In this document: positions 399 through 13,609 of the stretch, piece after piece
Position numbering within the stretch: position 1 is the stretch's first letter
Layout: each line of letters opens with the position of its first letter
DNA from: Desulfobacteraceae bacterium
GTDB taxonomy: Bacteria; Desulfobacterota; Desulfobacteria; Desulfobacterales; Desulfobacteraceae
Direction: 5' to 3'
NCBI GenBank assembly: GCA_022712835.1
Contig: JAFLJU010000525.1
Coordinates: 1 to 18,324, forward strand
DNA: 18,324 nucleotides
Translations under genes and position numbers: made by a program
The notes under the pieces: generated by a model
What the model was told of the DNA's origin: nothing
What the model saw: the letters and a program-made list of their open reading frames with translations, nothing else
The model's database searches: none

Positions 399-1418
399 TT
401 AACCATTCTCCCGGGTGTATTGGGCCAGACGCTCAAGCTTTTCCAGGGCCTTGCCGGATTCAATGGCTTTTCTGGCAAGACTGATCCCCTCTTCAATTGT
501 ATGGACCATATTTGCTGCCACAAGACCCACACCTGAATTGAGCAGGACGATGTCTTGCTTGGGGCCTTTTTGACCCGAAAGGATATCCCGGGTAATGGCG
601 GCATTTGTCTGCACATCTCCGCCTTTCAGGTCATTGGGGTCTGCATAGTCCTCAAAATAGTTCAAAGGATCCAGATCATAGGATTTTATGGTATTGTCAC
701 ACAGTTCTGAAACCCGGGTTAGATTGGTGGTGGTGATTTCATCCATGCCGTCGTGGCCGTGGACCACAAAGGCGCGTTCCACACCGAGCAGTTTCAAAGC
801 TTGTGCAAACATTTCTGTAAGCCCTGGGGCATAGACCCCCAGGATTTGACAGGAGGCAGCCGCCGGGTTGGTAAGCGGCCCCAACATATTGAAGATGCTG
901 CGGATGCCGCAGTCTTGCCTTGCCTTGCCTGCATATTTCATGGATCCGTGGTACATGGGGGCAAACATGAAGCCAATACCGATCTCGTTGATGGCCTCTT
1001 CCACAATTTCAGGATCGATATTCAGATTAACCCCTAGGGCTTCGAGCACATCGGCACTGCCGCATTTGCTTGAGATACTTCTGTTACCGTGTTTGGCCAC
1101 GGTAACGCCGGCTCCCGCCACCACAAAGGCGGTGGTGGTGGATATATTAAAGGAGCCAGAGGAATCCCCTCCGGTTCCGCAGGTATCGATTACATTTTTG
1201 GACAGGGTCTGGATTCGAATCGCTTTTCGCCGCATGGCACGGGCAGCTCCTGCCAACTCTTCAAAGGTTTCCCCCTTGGTGGCAAGGGCCGCCATAAAAG
1301 CGCCGATCTGGGCCTCTTTTATTTCACCTGAGAAAATATCGGTGAGCATGGATGCCATTTGATCCTGGGAAAGGTTTTGGCCCCCAATGATGGTATTAAG
1401 GTTTGCTGTAAATGTCAT
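399..1418 (-). CDS. trpD: Anthranilate phosphoribosyltransferase
   Basis: TrpD transfers the phosphoribosyl group of PRPP to anthranilate, the second step of the tryptophan branch. The 339 residues match the usual length of a stand-alone TrpD. The PRPP-binding glycine motif GTGGD is at about residues 81-85, followed by NIST (91-94) and KHGNR (109-113). An HGHDGMDEI segment near residue 220 fits the Mg-binding and anthranilate-binding region. The N-terminal helical bundle contains LSQDQMASMLTDIFSG. The start ATG follows the trpG stop by one base (TGA-G-ATG), and an AAGGAG ribosome-binding site lies inside the trpG end, so coupling is likely. It is not fused to trpG, unlike in the enteric bacteria. 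Confidence 0.97.
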   Translation of the reverse strand: MTFTANLNTIIGGQNLSQDQMASMLTDIFSGEIKEAQIGAFMAALATKGETFEELAGAARAMRRKAIRIQTLSKNVIDTCGTGGDSSGSFNISTTTAFVVAGAGVTVAKHGNRSISSKCGSADVLEALGVNLNIDPEIVEEAINEIGIGFMFAPMYHGSMKYAGKARQDCGIRSIFNMLGPLTNPAAASCQILGVYAPGLTEMFAQALKLLGVERAFVVHGHDGMDEITTTNLTRVSELCDNTIKSYDLDPLNYFEDYADPNDLKGGDVQTNAAITRDILSGQKGPKQDIVLLNSGVGLVAANMVHTIEEGISLARKAIESGKALEKLERLAQYTRENG

Positions 1419-1419
1419 C

Positions 1420-1989
1420 TCATACTCCTTTGATAAAGTTCCGGATCAGCCGTTTGCCCACGGTGGTCATGAAGGACTCCGGGTGGAACTGCACTCCCTG
1501 GGTGGGATGTTCTTTGTGGCGGATGCCCATGATTTCACCATCATCTGTTCTGGCCGTTACCTCAAGACAGTCTGGCAAATCTTCTTCCCGGACGGCCAGG
1601 GAATGGTAGCGCATGACGGAAAAAGGGCTTTTTATTCCTGAAAAGATATCTTCCCCGTTGGCTTCAATCATGGAGGTTTTGCCATGCATGATTTTCTTGG
1701 CGTGGATGATGGTTCCACCAAACGCTTGGGCTATGGTCTGGTGTCCCAGGCACACCCCTAAAATGGGGATTACACCCGATAGATGTTTAACAACATCCAG
1801 GGAAATCCCGGCATCCTCAGGTCTTCCAGGGCCGGGTGATATCACGATGGCGTTTGGGTTGAATTTTTTAAGTTCCTCCACACAGATCTTGTCATTTCTG
1901 AAAACCTCTACCCTGGCCCCGGTGTGGAGAACATAGTGGACCAGATTAAAGGTGAAAGAATCATAGTTATCAATAATGGCTACCTGCAT
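1420..1989 (-). CDS. trpG: Anthranilate synthase component II (glutamine amidotransferase)
   Basis: This is the class I glutamine amidotransferase subunit that releases ammonia from glutamine and passes it to TrpE. The 189 residues are the standard single-domain size. The nucleophile is Cys80 in GVCLGHQTIAQAFGG. The rest of the triad is His169 and Glu171 in VQFHPES. The N-terminus IDNYDSFTFNLVHY and the SPGPGRPEDAG segment (51-61) are typical of TrpG/PabA. The same protein might also serve folate synthesis as PabA, which sequence alone cannot exclude. Placement directly behind trpE makes TrpG the main role. The ATG abuts the trpE stop (TAA-ATG), with a GGAGG-like ribosome-binding site in the end of trpE. 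Confidence 0.96.
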   Translation of the reverse strand: MQVAIIDNYDSFTFNLVHYVLHTGARVEVFRNDKICVEELKKFNPNAIVISPGPGRPEDAGISLDVVKHLSGVIPILGVCLGHQTIAQAFGGTIIHAKKIMHGKTSMIEANGEDIFSGIKSPFSVMRYHSLAVREEDLPDCLEVTARTDDGEIMGIRHKEHPTQGVQFHPESFMTTVGKRLIRNFIKGV

Positions 1990-3498
1990 TTATTTGCCTC
2001 CGTTAATATCTGAAAGGGCAAGTTTCAAGGCCATTTCCACACTCTTTGCCTTATTTTTGCACTCTTCATGTTCTGTTTTGGGATCTGAGTCATGGACAAT
2101 CCCGGCACCCGCCTGGACGGTGAGGGTATCATTTTCCATGACAGCCGTGCGGATGGTGATGGCAAAATCCATGTTTCCGGTAAAGGAAATATACCCGGCA
2201 GCCCCCCCATATACTCCCCTGGGACGATTTTCAAGTTCGGAAATGATTTCCATGGCCCGGATTTTTGGCGCCCCGGACAGGGTCCCGGCCGGAAAGGTGG
2301 CCTTGAATAGATCAAAGGCGTCACAGCCTTGTTTCAGGTCACAGGTGATATTAGACACCAGGTGCATGACATGGGAATACCGTTCAATCACCATGGTATC
2401 AGTGACCTGGACGGTTCCGGCTTCGGCAATCCTGCCCAGATCGTTTCGGCCAAGATCAATGAGCATCACGTGTTCCGCCCTTTCCTTTTCATCATTTAAG
2501 AGTTCATCTGCAAGCGCTCGATCCTCTTGTTCCGTGGCCCCCCGGGGTCTTGTCCCCGCAATGGGGCGAAGGGTTGCAATGTTGTTTTCCAGCCGCACCA
2601 TGGTTTCAGGTGAAGAACCGGCAATAACGGTATCGGAAAAGTTCATGAAAAACATATAGGGAGAGGGGTTGATATACCGCTGGGCCCTGTATATAAGGAC
2701 GGGATCTATGGCCGCCTTACAAGAAAAGGGCTGGGAATAGACTGCCTGGAAAACATCTCCTTCCACTATATGATTTTTTATGGTTTCAACCCCCTGAATG
2801 TATTGGTCTTCCGGTGTCAGGGGACTGAAGCTGACATCGGGTATGGGGTCATGTTTCTTTTTTTCAAAAGGCTTATGGATGGTATCCACAAGGGCGCTCA
2901 GATCCGCCTTGGCTTCATCAAAGATCTTGCCTGGATCTGAAGGATTGGATTTTGTTGAATTCCCGGGCAGGTAGCATATTTTCACACAGGTAAGGGTTTG
3001 TTTCATATTATCAAAAATAATCATACAATCCGGGATGATAAAATGACCATAGGGGGTCCCTTCTGGCAGGGACACTTTGATATCTTCAAAAAAGGACACC
3101 ATTTCATAGGTGAAATATCCCGTGAGTCCACTCCAGAAACGGGGCAGGTCTGGGATATCAGCAGGGGTATATCCGTTGATGAGCGTGCGCATCACCCCCA
3201 GAGGATCGTTTTTATGGAGAATTTTTTCTTGTTTATTTTGGGTGGTGATTTCCACATACTCTTTGAATATTTTGACGGTGCCAAAAGCGGATACACCTAA
3301 AAAACTATATCTGGCCCATCTTTCGCCGCCTTCCACACTTTCCAGTAAAAAACATTCTTTGTTTTTGTCATAGAATTTTTGCAAAATAGAGACCGGGGTG
3401 TCGGTATCGGCTAACACCCTTGTACAGACAGGGATCACATTGGCGGTCCCGGCAAGGGAAACAAATTTTTCTTTATTGGGAAATTGTTCTAATATCAT
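1990..3498 (-). CDS. trpE: Anthranilate synthase component I
   Basis: TrpE converts chorismate plus ammonia to anthranilate, the committed step to tryptophan. At 502 residues it is full length. The N-terminal domain carries LLESVEGGERWARYSFLG starting at residue 51. In characterised TrpE the LLES stretch forms part of the tryptophan feedback site, so allosteric inhibition is likely retained. The C-terminal chorismate-binding domain has GTRPRGATEQEDR, LIDLGRNDLGRIAEAGTV, TFPAGTLSGAPKIRAMEI and GAGIVHDSDPKTEHEEC, all hallmarks of the family. A usable AGGA lies about 9 nt before the ATG. It is the first structural gene of the operon and lies behind the attenuator described at 3522-3731. Confidence 0.97.
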   Translation of the reverse strand: MILEQFPNKEKFVSLAGTANVIPVCTRVLADTDTPVSILQKFYDKNKECFLLESVEGGERWARYSFLGVSAFGTVKIFKEYVEITTQNKQEKILHKNDPLGVMRTLINGYTPADIPDLPRFWSGLTGYFTYEMVSFFEDIKVSLPEGTPYGHFIIPDCMIIFDNMKQTLTCVKICYLPGNSTKSNPSDPGKIFDEAKADLSALVDTIHKPFEKKKHDPIPDVSFSPLTPEDQYIQGVETIKNHIVEGDVFQAVYSQPFSCKAAIDPVLIYRAQRYINPSPYMFFMNFSDTVIAGSSPETMVRLENNIATLRPIAGTRPRGATEQEDRALADELLNDEKERAEHVMLIDLGRNDLGRIAEAGTVQVTDTMVIERYSHVMHLVSNITCDLKQGCDAFDLFKATFPAGTLSGAPKIRAMEIISELENRPRGVYGGAAGYISFTGNMDFAITIRTAVMENDTLTVQAGAGIVHDSDPKTEHEECKNKAKSVEMALKLALSDINGGK

Positions 3499-3521: not shown

Positions 3522-3552
3522 AAAAAAAGGCATGCACGTATTTTATGCAGCC
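3522..3552 (-). terminator. trp attenuator: intrinsic terminator before trpE
   Basis: On the minus strand, arms GGCTGCA and TGCAxGCC (one bulged base) form a 7-bp stem with a 9-nt loop and are followed at once by seven T residues (3528-3522). It ends about 23 nt before the trpE start. The position between leader peptide and first structural gene is that of a transcription attenuator. The 5' arm (3546-3552) is also able to pair with an upstream segment, which would prevent the terminator. Confidence 0.8.
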
Positions 3553-3670
3553 AATATTTAAACGACTGCAACAGCGTTGTGAATCGGCTGCTGCATTGAC
3601 GGGTTTGTGGGATCAAATCTATTAGATCAAATCTATCAGATCAAACAAGGGGTTCAAAGCAGCAGCAAGC
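3546..3670 (-). promoter_or_regulatory. trp leader alternative stems (antiterminator and competing pairings)
   Basis: Four overlapping pairings can be drawn by hand on the minus-strand RNA. Segment 1 (3659-3666, GCTGCTGC, inside the end of trpL) matches segment 2 (3587-3594, GCAGCAGC) over 8 bp. Segment 2 (3587-3595) also pairs with segment 3 (3567-3575) over 9 bp with one G-U. Segment 3 (3564-3570, TGCAGTC) pairs with the terminator 5' arm (3546-3552, GGCTGCA) over 7 bp with one G-U and an 11-nt loop. That 5' arm finally pairs within the terminator. Neighbouring pairings exclude each other, which is the architecture of a ribosome-mediated attenuator. Energies were not calculated. Confidence 0.72.
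3611..3645 (-). repeat. 14-nt tandem repeat, 2.5 copies, inside the trp leader
   Basis: On the minus strand TTTGATCTGATAGA is followed by TTTGATCTAATAGA and then the partial unit TTTGATC. The repeat sits between the trpL stop codon and segment 2 of the attenuator. It may only set the distance between leader peptide and switch; no known binding site was recognised. Confidence 0.7.
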
Positions 3671-3731
3671 GCCATAGGGGCCAGGGCCACCATTGGGAGA
3701 ACATTGTGTTTTTTGATTGAAATGGTCTCAT
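3654..3731 (-). CDS. trpL: trp operon leader peptide, 25 aa with four Trp codons
   Basis: A 25-codon frame on the minus strand starts at ATG 3731-3729 and stops at TGA 3656-3654. Its second half reads SQWWPWPLWRLLLL, with Trp at residues 14, 15, 17 and 20. Four Trp codons in seven positions of a short peptide just upstream of trpE are the signature of a Trp-sensing leader peptide. A GGGA lies 7 nt before the ATG and can serve as ribosome-binding site. The last four Leu codons form segment 1 of the RNA switch. Expected role: ribosomes pause at the Trp codons when charged tRNA-Trp is scarce and so set the fate of the downstream terminator. It is too short to be picked up by routine gene calling. 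Confidence 0.85.
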   Translation of the reverse strand: MRPFQSKNTMFSQWWPWPLWRLLLL

Positions 3732-3765: not shown

Positions 3766-3790
3766 TTATTAAACAATAATACGGGTGACT

Positions 3791-3818
3791 ATTTAAATGA
3801 TTTGAGAAGACTTGTCAA
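3791..3818 (-). promoter_or_regulatory. Predicted sigma70 promoter of the trp operon
   Basis: On the minus strand a perfect -35 TTGACA (3818-3813) is followed after 16 bp by TTAAAT (3796-3791), which matches the -10 consensus at four of six positions. Transcription would start near 3784, giving an RNA leader of about 285 nt before trpE that contains trpL and the attenuator. Confidence 0.65.
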
Positions 3819-3823
3819 TACAA

Positions 3824-3845
3824 TTGTTTCTATGAGTAGAAACAA
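3824..3845. promoter_or_regulatory. Perfect 9-bp palindrome just upstream of the trp -35 box
   Basis: TTGTTTCTA and TAGAAACAA are exact reverse complements separated by TGAG. The site ends 6 bp from the trp -35 hexamer and also lies ahead of the divergent radical SAM gene. It could be a regulator site shared by the two transcription units. No known regulator consensus was recognised. Confidence 0.45.
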
Positions 3846-4007
3846 GGTTGGCAATGGTTTTTCCATTCTGGGGTGCTATCTGTCTGATTTTATGAAAAAA
3901 TCTCAATCTTTTCAAAGAACCCCCGAAAATTCCAAGTGTGGATTTGGATTAAATATGATACATGTTGGGTCTATTTTTTAAAATTATTATGTAAGGACAA
4001 ATCCTTT
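3846..4007 (+). promoter_or_regulatory. Upstream region of the radical SAM operon with a weak promoter candidate
   Basis: Together with the trp leader this makes a 509-bp gap between trpE and the radical SAM gene. In this part a TATGAT (3954-3959) resembles a -10 box, with only a poor -35 (TTCCAA at 3930-3935, 18-bp spacer). An AAGGA at 3993-3997 is the ribosome-binding site for the ATG at 4008. A 74-codon open frame from 3757 to 3981 crosses the trp promoter without a ribosome-binding site and is not called. Confidence 0.35.
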
Positions 4008-5543
4008 ATGTTGCTCATTTTCCCCCCGGTTGCAAAACCCTGTGAACCACCGGCCGGGGTAGCCTTGCTGGCTGCTGCTTTAAAAAGTCATGGGCTGCCC
4101 TGCAGTGTCTATGACGCAAGTGTTGACGGAATAATGTATTTAATCGAATCGGTCCGGGATGCAAAAGACCCATGGTCTTTGCGGGCATTGAAAAACAGAG
4201 ACTCCATCATATCTGATCTGAAGACCCCGAAGCTATATACAAATGTGGACCGCTATCACCAACGGGTCTATGATCTGAACAGGCTTTTGTCTATCTCCGT
4301 GGATCAAACCCGGTTTAAGATCAGCCTGAGCGATTATTCAGATAACCTTCTTTCTTCTGTGGATAGTAAGGATCTTTTAAAAAGTGCGACAGCCTTTGAA
4401 GAGAACCCGTTTTTCCCATTTTTTGAACAAAAGATCCGGCCCCTGATTCTGGCATCTGATTCTGAATATGTGGGGATTTCCCTTTGTTATTTGAACCAGG
4501 CCCTGGTCAGTTTTGCCCTGGCCGGCTGGATAAAACATAACTTTAAAGACAAAAAAATCGTCATGGGGGGCGGGCTTATCTCCTCTTGGATGAGTCGGCC
4601 CGAATTTGGGGATGCGTCCCATAATCCATTTTCCGGCTTGATTGATCGAATGATCAAAGGGGAGGGAGAGCAACCCCTGCTTGCGCTTTTCGGTGTAACG
4701 GATGCCCAAAAACATTATGTTCCCGATTATGGATTTGCCAAAAAGCATGCCTACCTGGCACCCGGGAGAATCTTGCCCTTTCGGGCTTCCATCGGTTGCT
4801 ATTGGAGTAAATGCAGATTTTGTCCTGAGCGAGCGGAAACCCGACCCTATTCGACAAAGCGGTCGGACATTATGTTGGAAGATTTAAAACAGATGACCTA
4901 CGAATATGCGCCGGATTATGTGCATTTTATTGACAATGCTGTTACCCCGGCATTTTTGAAAGCCTTGTCCCAAACCGAACTGGGATTTAAATGGTACGGG
5001 TTTGTACGATTCGAAAAGGAGTTTTTAAACTTTGAGTTTTGTAAGAATCTAAAAAAGAGCGGATGTGAGATGCTGAAACTTGGTCTTGAATCCGGGGATC
5101 AGGATGTGCTGGAACAGATGAACAAAGGGACAGACCTTGGGATGGTTGAAATCATTCTTTCAAATCTTAAGAAAGCCGGAATTTTGACCTATGTTTATCT
5201 TTTGTTTGGCACCAGTTTTGAAGATGAAACCGCTGCCCGGAAAACCCTTGACTATATTAAGATCCACAAGGGCAACATTGACTATTTGAACCTGGCGGTT
5301 TTTAATCTGCCCAAATTCAGTGAAGATGCCAAAGCCCTTGAGACCCAGGAGTTTTACCACGGAGATCTGTCCTTGTACCTGAATTTTATACATCCAATGG
5401 GCTGGACCCGGCGAAAAGTAAAAAATTTTTTAGACAAGGAGTTTAAAAAACAACTGGCCATTGGATCGGAATTCAGGAAAAATCCTGCCTATTTTTCATC
5501 CAATCATGCCATGCTCTTTAATCAGTTGGAGGATAAAAAATGA
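4008..5543 (+). CDS. B12-binding-domain-type radical SAM protein
   Basis: A 511-residue protein of the two-domain radical SAM class. The N-terminal part (LLIFPPVAKPCEPPAGVALL, then EYVGISLCYLNQALVSFA and KKIVMGGG near residues 160-190) has the Rossmann-like pattern of cobalamin-binding domains, but I see no DxHxxG cobalamin motif. The radical SAM core begins at SIGCYWSKCRFC with Cys264, Cys269 and Cys272, that is CX4CX2C rather than the usual CX3CX2C. GLESGDQDVLEQMNKGT and TYVYLLFGTSFEDE follow as in the barrel of this class. The substrate is unknown. I chose the ATG at 4008 because AAGGA lies 10 nt upstream; an in-frame start at 3936 would add 24 unlike residues. Its stop overlaps the cinA start (ATGA), so the two are coupled. 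Confidence 0.88.
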   Translation: MLLIFPPVAKPCEPPAGVALLAAALKSHGLPCSVYDASVDGIMYLIESVRDAKDPWSLRALKNRDSIISDLKTPKLYTNVDRYHQRVYDLNRLLSISVDQTRFKISLSDYSDNLLSSVDSKDLLKSATAFEENPFFPFFEQKIRPLILASDSEYVGISLCYLNQALVSFALAGWIKHNFKDKKIVMGGGLISSWMSRPEFGDASHNPFSGLIDRMIKGEGEQPLLALFGVTDAQKHYVPDYGFAKKHAYLAPGRILPFRASIGCYWSKCRFCPERAETRPYSTKRSDIMLEDLKQMTYEYAPDYVHFIDNAVTPAFLKALSQTELGFKWYGFVRFEKEFLNFEFCKNLKKSGCEMLKLGLESGDQDVLEQMNKGTDLGMVEIILSNLKKAGILTYVYLLFGTSFEDETAARKTLDYIKIHKGNIDYLNLAVFNLPKFSEDAKALETQEFYHGDLSLYLNFIHPMGWTRRKVKNFLDKEFKKQLAIGSEFRKNPAYFSSNHAMLFNQLEDKK

Positions 5544-12116: not shown

Positions 12117-13505
12117 ATGTCTATCAGCAAACGAAAAACCTATGAACTTGAAATAATTGACCTGGCCTTTGGTGGTAAGGGGCTTGCAAAACCCGATGGA
12201 TTTCCCGTGTTTATCGATCGGTGCGTGCCCGGTGATACGGTCTTTGTAAAAATAAGCAAAAAGAAAAAATCCTGGGCCGAAGGAAAACTGATCCGGATTT
12301 TGAAACCTTCACAGCTTCGTCAGGAGGGCAGATGCCGGTATTGTAATTATTGTGGTGGATGTAAATGGCAGGAGTTGCCCTATGAGCTTCAGCTGGAATA
12401 TAAAAAAAGACATGTCACTGAATCCATTGAGCACATCGGCAGGTTACAAGGGGTTCCGGTCACAGATGTGATTCCTTCTGATCCGATATTCGGGTATCGG
12501 AATAAAATGGAATTTTCCTGTTCTACCCAGCGCTGGCTGATGCCTGAAGAACTTGAGGATGAGACCATCAAAAAAGGATTTGGTATCGGCCTCCATGTGC
12601 CCGGCACCTTTGACAAGGTCATTGATATCAAGCAGTGTGAAATCATGCCGGACATGGGAAATAAGATTTTGGAGGATGTAAGGGCTTTTATCCTGGAATC
12701 CGGACTGCCAGCCTATGGTCTTAAAACCCATGAAGGGTTTTGGCGATTTCTCATGGTGCGCCATTCAGTGGCAAAAGATGAGTGGATGGTCAATATTATC
12801 ACCCGGGATAAAAATTTATCTGTGGTATCAAAATTGGGAGAATTGCTGGCACAAAAATATCCCAATATTACCAGCATTCTCAACAATATCACAGATTCAA
12901 AATCCGGGGTGGCCAACGATAAAGAAGAGATCCTGATCCATGGGGATAATTTCATTACGGAAAAATTGGGCGATTTTAGCTTTGAAATATCAGCCAACTC
13001 TTTTTTCCAGACCAATACAAGAACCTGTCAAAAACTATATGCCAAGGTGGCCCAGTATGCTGATCTCACAGGGGATCAGACGGTTTTGGATTTATATTCC
13101 GGCACCGGTACCATTCCCATTTGGTTATCAAAGAAAGCCAAAAAGGTTTATGGAATTGAGATTGTTCCCTCTGCGGTCATTGATGCCAAAAAGAACGCCC
13201 AATTGAACGGGGTTGAAAATTGTGAGTTTTTTGAAGGGGACATAAAGGATGTGCTGCCAACACTTCCCCATATACCGGATGTGATCATTATTGATCCGCC
13301 CCGGGTGGGAATGCACAAGGATGTGGTCAGCCAGGTGCTGGCGATTAATGCCCCGAAAATTGTGTATGTGTCCTGTAATCCCGCCACCTTGGCCCGGGAT
13401 CTTGAAATGCTGGCTGTTCGTTATGAGGTGGTGGAAATCACCCCTGTGGATATGTTTCCTCATACCTATCACATAGAATCAGTGGCCTTGCTCACGCAAA
13501 AATAA
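12117..13505 (+). CDS. rlmD: 23S rRNA (uracil-5-)-methyltransferase, RlmD/RumA type
   Basis: This SAM-dependent enzyme makes 5-methyluridine in 23S rRNA. The 462 residues hold, in order, an N-terminal TRAM RNA-binding domain (about 1-62), a 4Fe-4S cluster site (Cys73, Cys79 and Cys82 in CX5CX2C, fourth ligand probably Cys174 in KQCEIM), and a Rossmann methyltransferase domain. SAM binding is shown by LDLYSGTGTIP. The catalytic nucleophile is Cys420 in VSCNPATLARDL, and the general base is probably Glu454 in HIESVALL. An extra Cys76 lies in the cluster loop. Whether it targets U1939, U747 or both (RlmCD type) cannot be decided here. The ribosome-binding site is weak. A strong terminator follows 19 nt after the stop. 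Confidence 0.93.
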   Translation: MSISKRKTYELEIIDLAFGGKGLAKPDGFPVFIDRCVPGDTVFVKISKKKKSWAEGKLIRILKPSQLRQEGRCRYCNYCGGCKWQELPYELQLEYKKRHVTESIEHIGRLQGVPVTDVIPSDPIFGYRNKMEFSCSTQRWLMPEELEDETIKKGFGIGLHVPGTFDKVIDIKQCEIMPDMGNKILEDVRAFILESGLPAYGLKTHEGFWRFLMVRHSVAKDEWMVNIITRDKNLSVVSKLGELLAQKYPNITSILNNITDSKSGVANDKEEILIHGDNFITEKLGDFSFEISANSFFQTNTRTCQKLYAKVAQYADLTGDQTVLDLYSGTGTIPIWLSKKAKKVYGIEIVPSAVIDAKKNAQLNGVENCEFFEGDIKDVLPTLPHIPDVIIIDPPRVGMHKDVVSQVLAINAPKIVYVSCNPATLARDLEMLAVRYEVVEITPVDMFPHTYHIESVALLTQK

Positions 13506-13524
13506 AACCTCGGCTGAAAATCAA

Positions 13525-13564
13525 AAAGAAAGAGCCCATGATCATAAGCATGGGCTCTTTCTTT
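13525..13564. terminator. Bidirectional intrinsic terminator, 16-bp perfect stem
   Basis: AAAGAAAGAGCCCATG (13525-13540) and its exact reverse complement (13549-13564) flank an 8-nt loop. T-rich tails follow on both strands: TTTCTTT on plus, CTTTCTTTTTG on minus. It sits between the stop of rlmD and the stop of the convergent CoA-transferase gene and can end both transcripts. Confidence 0.9.
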
Positions 13565-13609
13565 GCACTAAAATTTCCCCCGGTTATCCTTTCCTATATT
13601 TTTTTTGCT

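Follow-up and report, generated by a model that had tools for sequence, protein, structure and literature searches.

A putative ribosome-mediated attenuator with a his-type six-segment leader upstream of trpEGD in the Desulfobacteraceae

Organization of the trp locus

The minus strand of the window (the whole 18,324-nt stretch of Desulfobacteraceae DNA analyzed here) carries trpE, trpG, and trpD in succession. The first structural gene, trpE (1990..3498), begins with an ATG at 3498, and its product matches Pfam PF00425 and PF04715 and scores 508.5 bits against NCBIfam TIGR00564, slightly below the cut-off of 517.7. It is followed in the same direction by trpG (1420..1989; PF00117, with TIGR00566 over its cut-off) and trpD (399..1418; TIGR01245 over its cut-off). 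Read along the minus strand, the region upstream of trpE comprises a palindrome, a TTGACA box, a weak −10 element, an SD-like GGGA, a leader ORF, a series of complementary segments, and a bulged hairpin with a U7 tract. The initial annotation had described a 25-codon frame with the peptide motif WWPWPLW, a stem with seven U residues, and a TTGACA promoter ahead of trpE, all of which were confirmed, the coordinates given for the feature (3522-3731) being exact. The genome, which had been taken for that of a sulfate reducer, is indeed of this type, its nearest trpE loci carrying the label Desulfobacteraceae or Desulfobacula. Among the 40 loci obtained by a protein scan for trpE, 38 are assigned by their labels to sulfate-reducer groups or to unassigned (delta)proteobacteria, the remaining two being a Clostridiales record and an Acidobacteriaceae record; one of the 40 (L033), being without a gene start, was left out.

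The sigma-70-type promoter (3790..3818, minus strand) consists of TTGACA at 3818-3813 and, after a spacer of 17 nt, TAAATA (or TTAAAT with a spacer of 16 nt), and it is conserved in relatives. A consensus scan of the window for promoters and terminators called neither the leader promoter nor the leader terminator, presumably because the −10 element is without the required final T and the terminator stem is bulged; given this miss, support for both elements is drawn from their conservation in relatives.

Two further features of the window were recorded. A divergent gene (3936-5543, plus strand), which shares its intergenic region with the palindrome, matches Radical_SAM only weakly, its 28 bits lying below the cut-off of 29.5. 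The sole Rfam match in the window, to STnc240 at 13497-13566 on the plus strand (E = 0.73, below cut-off), is a hairpin with a U-rich tail and is probably an ordinary terminator.

The leader ORF and its tryptophan codons

The leader ORF, MRPFQSKNTMFSQWWPWPLWRLLLL, occupies positions 3654..3731 of the minus strand, its 25 codons extending from an ATG at 3731 to a TGA stop codon ending at 3654, with the SD-like GGGA at 3742-3739. Codons 14, 15, 17, and 20 specify the four tryptophan residues of WWPWPLW (3672..3692), which are the candidate regulatory codons. Four Trp codons within eight were obtained in none of 20,000 dinucleotide shuffles of the 290-nt leader, and three or more in 54 of 20,000; the Trp cluster in this ORF is, thus, beyond chance. 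Among close relatives, a similar FQS stretch recurs at the N terminus in three and the Trp cluster in four. Between the ORF and the distal part of the leader, in the loop separating segments 2 and 3 (see below), lies a 14-nt tandem repeat of 2.5 copies (3611..3645), which is found in degenerate form in the relative G001.

Distribution of the leader among related loci

An alignment with five close relatives showed the ORF tail, the segments, and the U tract to be kept in four. In the fifth, G002 (loci L002 and L052), whose trpE is 84-85% identical, all elements from the transcript start to the U tract are missing. G002 represents a clean natural deletion of the whole attenuator, in which the palindrome, the promoter, and the U tract are retained.

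Wider conservation was assessed in three sets of loci. The family set of 86 genomes yielded 68 upstream regions, the other 18 genomes having no match, a distant paralogue only, or a gene without a start. In the class set, 108 genomes had a match, 23 of which are family members, and 80 of the other 85 were taken; the phylum sample comprised 40 of 119 genomes with a match. Class and phylum loci were scored for ORF and T-runs only.

A Trp-rich leader ORF (at least two Trp codons) precedes trpE in 45 of the 68 family loci, its start being ATG in 39, TTG in 5, and GTG in 1 under the rule that the most upstream start is taken. In a further locus, L061 of Desulfobacter latus (G007), the Trp frame is open and is preceded by other sequence, the promoter, the palindrome, and any nearby start codon being gone; this looks like a rearranged leader. 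No leader ORF was found in the other 22, which include G002. The expectation that related genomes would carry a Trp-rich short frame at the same place was, therefore, borne out for the 45 loci and G007, with 22 loci being without one.

A fixed automatic criterion (an ORF of up to 60 codons with at least 3 Trp in 8, within 420 nt upstream) was also applied. Within the family, 36 of 68 loci qualified, compared with 8 of 1,360 shuffles and a single one of 68 reverse strands; in the class outside the family, 57 of 80 loci did so, compared with 11 of 1,600 shuffles and none of 80 reverse strands. For the phylum sample, counted without a shuffle control, 17 of 40 loci qualified and 23 did not. Apart from the Trp cluster, the leader peptide sequences diverge between clades.

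Loci L081 (G051) and L100 (G064) present a terminator-like hairpin and U run before trpE with no Trp-rich ORF, and these hairpins are possibly remnants. In four other loci (L106, L107, L108, and L112, of G047, G039, G048, and G046, respectively), two strong tandem terminators of different sequence lie behind a Trp-rich leader ORF; in these same four genomes, no TrpR-family gene was found and no palindrome occurs at the promoter.

Complementary segments and alternative folds of the leader RNA

The 226-nt leader folds at −56.3 kcal/mol (z = −2.75), and 1 of 200 shuffles folds as well. Six segments can be delineated on the minus strand. Segment 1, CAAUGGUGGC (3686..3695), contains the first Trp codons and pairs with segment 2, GCUUGCUGCUGCUUUG (3655..3670), which forms the ORF tail; this 1:2 helix constitutes the protector. 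Segment 2 may pair alternatively with segment 3, AAUGCAGCAGCC (3586..3597), whose partner is segment 2 in the ON state or segment 4 in the OFF state and which can also pair with segment 5. Segment 4, GCUGUUGCAGUC (3564..3575), is partnered by segment 3 (OFF) or segment 5 (ON), and segment 5, UUGGCUGCAU (3545..3554), by segment 4 in the antiterminator or segment 6 in the terminator. Segment 6, GUGCAUGCC (3529..3537), was identified by folding as the 3′ arm of the terminator and is followed by the conserved U7 tract (3522..3528), the predicted 3′ end of the attenuated RNA. An intrinsic terminator, composed of a bulged stem and this tract, is thus predicted between the leader ORF and trpE.

The alternative RNA stems that had been noted from the sequence resolve, on folding, into two mutually exclusive sets, namely OFF (1:2, 3:4, and the 5:6 terminator) and ON (2:3 and 4:5). 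For the window leader, deleting all RNA as far as a stalled ribosome yields a minimum-energy structure with 2:3 and 4:5, and placing the ribosome on the stop codon once segment 6 has been transcribed yields one with 3:4 and 5:6. Eleven leaders were folded in detail, among which 3:4 with 5:6 was obtained at the stop codon in nine and a clear 2:3 with 4:5 on stalling in seven. G005 and G023 in this set use another 4:5 pairing, G044 has four segments, and the fold of G029, based on a wrong T-run, was left out; the 3:5 pairing also appears in G003. Many Desulfobacula-type leaders possess a 3:4 hairpin with its own U run, producing two tandem terminators (L058, L073, L077, and L086), and in G044, G045, G050, G052, and G053, only the 3:4 hairpin was called as a terminator.

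The protector hairpin was seen by folding in the window and in Desulfobacula types and was not clear in Desulfobacter-type leaders. In the nine-sequence group to which the window belongs, helix 1:2 is paired in 76.3% of cells and helix 2:3 in 100%.

Covariation and codon choice

Compensatory changes, on which the initial annotation had staked its reading, were apparent in one group of leaders and not in the window's own. Across 16 Desulfobacula-type leaders, the OFF helices are 89.4% paired and nine pairs have changed on both sides, a number reached by none of 500 shuffles, while their ON helices are 87.1% paired with covariation not above shuffles. In the window's group of nine, OFF and ON helices are 86.8% and 97.8% paired, respectively, and covariation is again not above shuffles; because the pairs are almost invariant, the evidence in this group is one of conservation and not of covariation. 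Such near-invariance would be explained if segments 2 to 5 each need two partners.

A second indication of selection on the RNA was obtained by synonymous shuffling of the ORF tail in 46 leaders (those of 45 family genomes and the window, with G007 left out). The native energy of the fold modelled on stalling lies below the shuffle mean in 45 of the 46, the exception being G057, and p < 0.05 was reached in 15 of 46, these leaders being related and hence not independent; for the window alone, the test was not significant (p = 0.109). As modelled in this way, codon choice in the ORF tail stabilizes the fold seen on stalling.

Ribosome-mask folding

The effect of ribosome position was modelled in the same 46 leaders as the extent to which upstream RNA ties up the 5′ arm of the terminator before the 3′ arm is made. 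RNA upstream of the ribosome was treated as absent, and the ribosome was assumed to cover 12 nt, beginning with the first base of the A-site codon. In 45 of 46 leaders, a ribosome at the best Trp stall left the terminator 5′ arm more sequestered than one at the stop codon did; the medians were 0.68 for the best stall, 0.015 for the stop, and 0.64 with no ribosome. The exception, G056, is a leader in which the first-scored hairpin overlaps the ORF. When followed codon by codon, sequestration falls close to the final Trp codons in many leaders, but that of the window shows no such drop.

The window itself is a weak case, with values of 0.87 (best stall), 0.75 (stop), and 0.86 (no ribosome), since segment 3 can pair with segment 5 when segment 2 is covered. 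The E. coli controls trpL, pheL, thrL, and ilvL behaved as expected, stall exceeding stop (for trpL, 0.62 on stalling, 0.00 at the stop, and 0.03 with no ribosome), whereas the mask test did not separate the two states for E. coli hisL (0.60 and 0.60). As a known attenuator is likewise left unseparated, the weak result for the window is not decisive either way.

A candidate operator and TrpR-family proteins

Directly upstream of the −35 box lies the palindrome TTGTTTCTACTCATAGAAACAA (3824..3845, minus strand), a candidate operator for a TrpR-family repressor. Of 69 loci (the window plus the 68 of the family), 61 carry the pattern TTTCTN6AGAAA no more than 600 nt from trpE, and in 59 of these 61, TTGACA follows the palindrome start at a distance of 23-25 nt; of the other two, G057 has TTGACT, and the match in G039 lies elsewhere and is probably due to chance. 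When a longer pattern was sought in ten genomes, 18 sites were recovered, compared with 5 for a reversed control pattern. Eight of the 18 are located at trpE, and eight of the other ten were read: two precede trpB (G001 and G002), one a trpB-related gene (G005), one a gene for a periplasmic binding protein (G005), and one a TrpR-family gene (G009), while three had no evident link to Trp. Two palindrome sites, at L041 (G005) and L046 (G001), are situated near Phenol_MetA_deg family genes.

TrpR-family domain PF01371 was detected in 65 of the 86 family genomes. It also matches in the B. subtilis control, and a PF01371 match is, therefore, insufficient by itself to establish a Trp repressor; the single TrpR protein that was scored reached 44 bits against an NCBIfam TrpR cut-off of 67. 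Inspection of 12 trpR loci revealed a clear site approximately 50 nt upstream of the TrpR match in G002 and G009 (1 and 2 mismatches of 16). A site with five mismatches occupies the same place in G001, G003, G008, and G062, being near chance by score and notable by position only.

The palindrome and the TrpR family were found to co-occur. Within 420 nt of trpE, the palindrome is present in 58 of the 68 family loci, comprising 53 of 56 TrpR-positive and 5 of 12 TrpR-negative loci, and outside the family in 6 of 8 TrpR-positive and 0 of 72 TrpR-negative loci. The corresponding Fisher values (8e-5 in the family and 9e-8 outside it) are both too small, as the genomes are related and hence do not count as independent observations. 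Three TrpR-positive loci of the family have no palindrome; these include G006, which has a one-mismatch site, and G012, in which the site lies further upstream; TrpR-negative G042 also has a one-mismatch site, and G176, whose PF01371 match is below cut-off, was counted as TrpR-negative. A survey of regulons in 196 proteobacterial genomes describes TrpR as conserved in gammaproteobacteria and absent in other classes (PMC5343134), and the co-occurrence observed here stands although TrpR was called absent there.

The window palindrome is, on these sites and this co-occurrence, probably the operator of a TrpR-like repressor, which probably acts on the same promoter as the attenuator. With a likely TrpR-type operator upstream of the promoter, attenuation is probably not the only control of the operon.

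Proposed mechanism and alternative explanations

It is proposed, with a probability of roughly 0.88, that the region upstream of trpE is a ribosome-mediated transcription attenuator of trpEGD, in which a his-type six-segment leader senses charged tRNA-Trp. The initial annotation of a trp attenuator is thereby upheld as regards a Trp-sensing leader and amended as regards its layout, which is the six-segment, his-like one and not the four-segment form of trp. From the ORF, its segments, and their folds, we infer the role of a stalling ribosome, termination at the U7 tract, and the response to Trp. When Trp is ample, the ribosome would reach the stop codon and cover segments 1 and 2, allowing segment 3 to pair with segment 4 and leaving segment 5 free for segment 6, upon which the polymerase would terminate at U7. 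When Trp is short, the ribosome would stall on the Trp codons and cover segment 1 only; 2:3 and 4:5 would then form, segment 6 would remain single, and the polymerase would read into trpE.

An odd-segment attenuator with inverted logic, the first model derived from the ON folds obtained without a ribosome, was dropped as the Trp codons can pair with the ORF tail, a pairing which restores the classical order. What remains of that model is a variant with the same parts in which the 1:2 protector is too weak, such that an untranslated leader would be read through by default and a ribosome at the ORF tail would force termination. Although unlikely, this variant would accord with the ribosome-free equilibrium, which is ON (above 0.4) in 39 of 46 leaders, compared with 0.03-0.44 in five E. 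coli leaders. A cruder comparison of equilibrium energies also puts 41 of 46 leaders on the ON side, the median for all 46 being 5.6 kcal/mol, but it is biased toward ON, as it favors that state by 1.8 for E. coli trpL too, and is not proof. If the variant were true, a leader deprived of its start codon would be expected to show increased and not reduced expression; in the ilvBNC leader of C. glutamicum, a start-codon mutant is described as lowering expression (PMC11857589). Against it stands the order of synthesis, which equilibrium energies ignore: in many of the 46 leaders, the Trp codons are able to pair with the ORF tail, both are transcribed first, and the Trp-to-stop stretch folds alone at −7.3 to −23.4 kcal/mol (−11.4 in the window and −21.1 in G062).

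The trpE attenuator of Sinorhizobium, whose RNA, rnTrpL, also acts in trans, represents a Trp-sensing leader outside the gammaproteobacteria, as does the leader described here. There, the leader peptide peTrpL has a reported function in trans (PMC7298713). That the peptide or the attenuated RNA of the present leader also acts in trans would accord with the length of the ORF and with the recurrence of part of its N terminus (FQS) in three close relatives, but is improbable given that the peptides diverge between clades outside the Trp cluster.

It is more doubtful still that the leader is a relic, decaying or irrelevant, in an operon controlled by the TrpR-like repressor alone. The frequency of the palindrome in the family, including 20 of the 22 leaderless loci, and the loss of the whole attenuator from G002 with its palindrome, promoter, and U tract kept would suit this explanation. 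However, 38 of 46 leader-bearing family loci (G007 included) also have the palindrome, so that the leaderless count is not in itself evidence that TrpR makes the leader expendable, and the window retains an intact ORF, segments, and U tract, all of them conserved in four relatives. A T-box, riboswitch, or other RNA-binding regulator accompanied by a chance Trp-rich ORF is very unlikely, as nothing was found in its favor beyond a terminator that would fit any attenuator, no Rfam family matches the window leader at E up to 1, and Trp clusters recur far above shuffles.

Relation to known attenuators and implications

The attenuator proposed here resembles E. coli trpL in having a Trp-rich leader ORF, a terminator before trpE, and an antiterminator predicted to form on stalling at Trp codons, as well as in the higher value of the stalled ribosome relative to that at the stop codon in the mask test. 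It differs from trpL in its size (25 codons with four Trp, as opposed to 14 codons with two), in the position of segment 2 inside the ORF, in the extra 3:4 hairpin between protector and terminator, and in a no-ribosome state which is ON in most of these leaders and 0.03 in trpL. The enterobacterial his attenuator comprises six segments, forming A:B, C:D, and E:F in the OFF state and B:C and D:E in the ON state. Our leader shares with that of E. coli and Salmonella the six segments, three OFF and two ON hairpins, and an extra middle hairpin, though Trp codons take the place of His codons; the likeness drawn here is one of layout. In the his leader, this extra hairpin has been described between the pause hairpin and the terminator (PMC1183508).

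As in the gammaproteobacterial TrpR regulon, a TrpR-family gene is accompanied by palindromic sites at trpE and, in some relatives, at trpB and trpR. The palindrome, TGTTTCTANNNNTAGAAACA, differs from the E. coli operator, and at trpE it is located upstream of the −35 box, which is also unlike the gammaproteobacterial arrangement.

The mechanism proposed is classical, while its spread in the phylum and its pairing with a TrpR-type site appear to be little described. The main text of a genome-wide terminator study contains no Desulfo- or Geobacter names (PMC2965389), and no description of a Desulfobacterota trp attenuator was recognized among the literature matches listed, which cover full-text articles and few subscription papers; such cases may be contained in the 2010 attenuation survey of Lopatovskaya et al. 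(cited in PMC4833913). Among 20 relatives, the highest RF00513 (Trp_leader) score was 24.3 bits, short of the cut-off of 41, and every other family likewise stayed below cut-off.

We may speculate that, in the Desulfobacterota, the attenuator is the older layer and functions as a default-ON relay, being read through when untranslated and terminating only if a ribosome moves past the Trp codons. Some lineages would later have acquired a TrpR-like repressor and its palindrome, leaving the attenuator free to be lost, as in G002, or duplicated, as with the tandem terminators of Desulfobacula; this scenario is tentative and, taken as a whole, rather unlikely. The present findings would extend a textbook mechanism to a phylum whose leaders, as represented by the window and 20 relatives, are matched by no Rfam family at cut-off. 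The combination of an attenuator with a TrpR-like operator suggests that trpE is under double control in these distant anaerobes, much as in E. coli, and because natural cases exist in which either layer is missing, it becomes testable in what order the layers arose and under which circumstances one can be dispensed with in the presence of the other.
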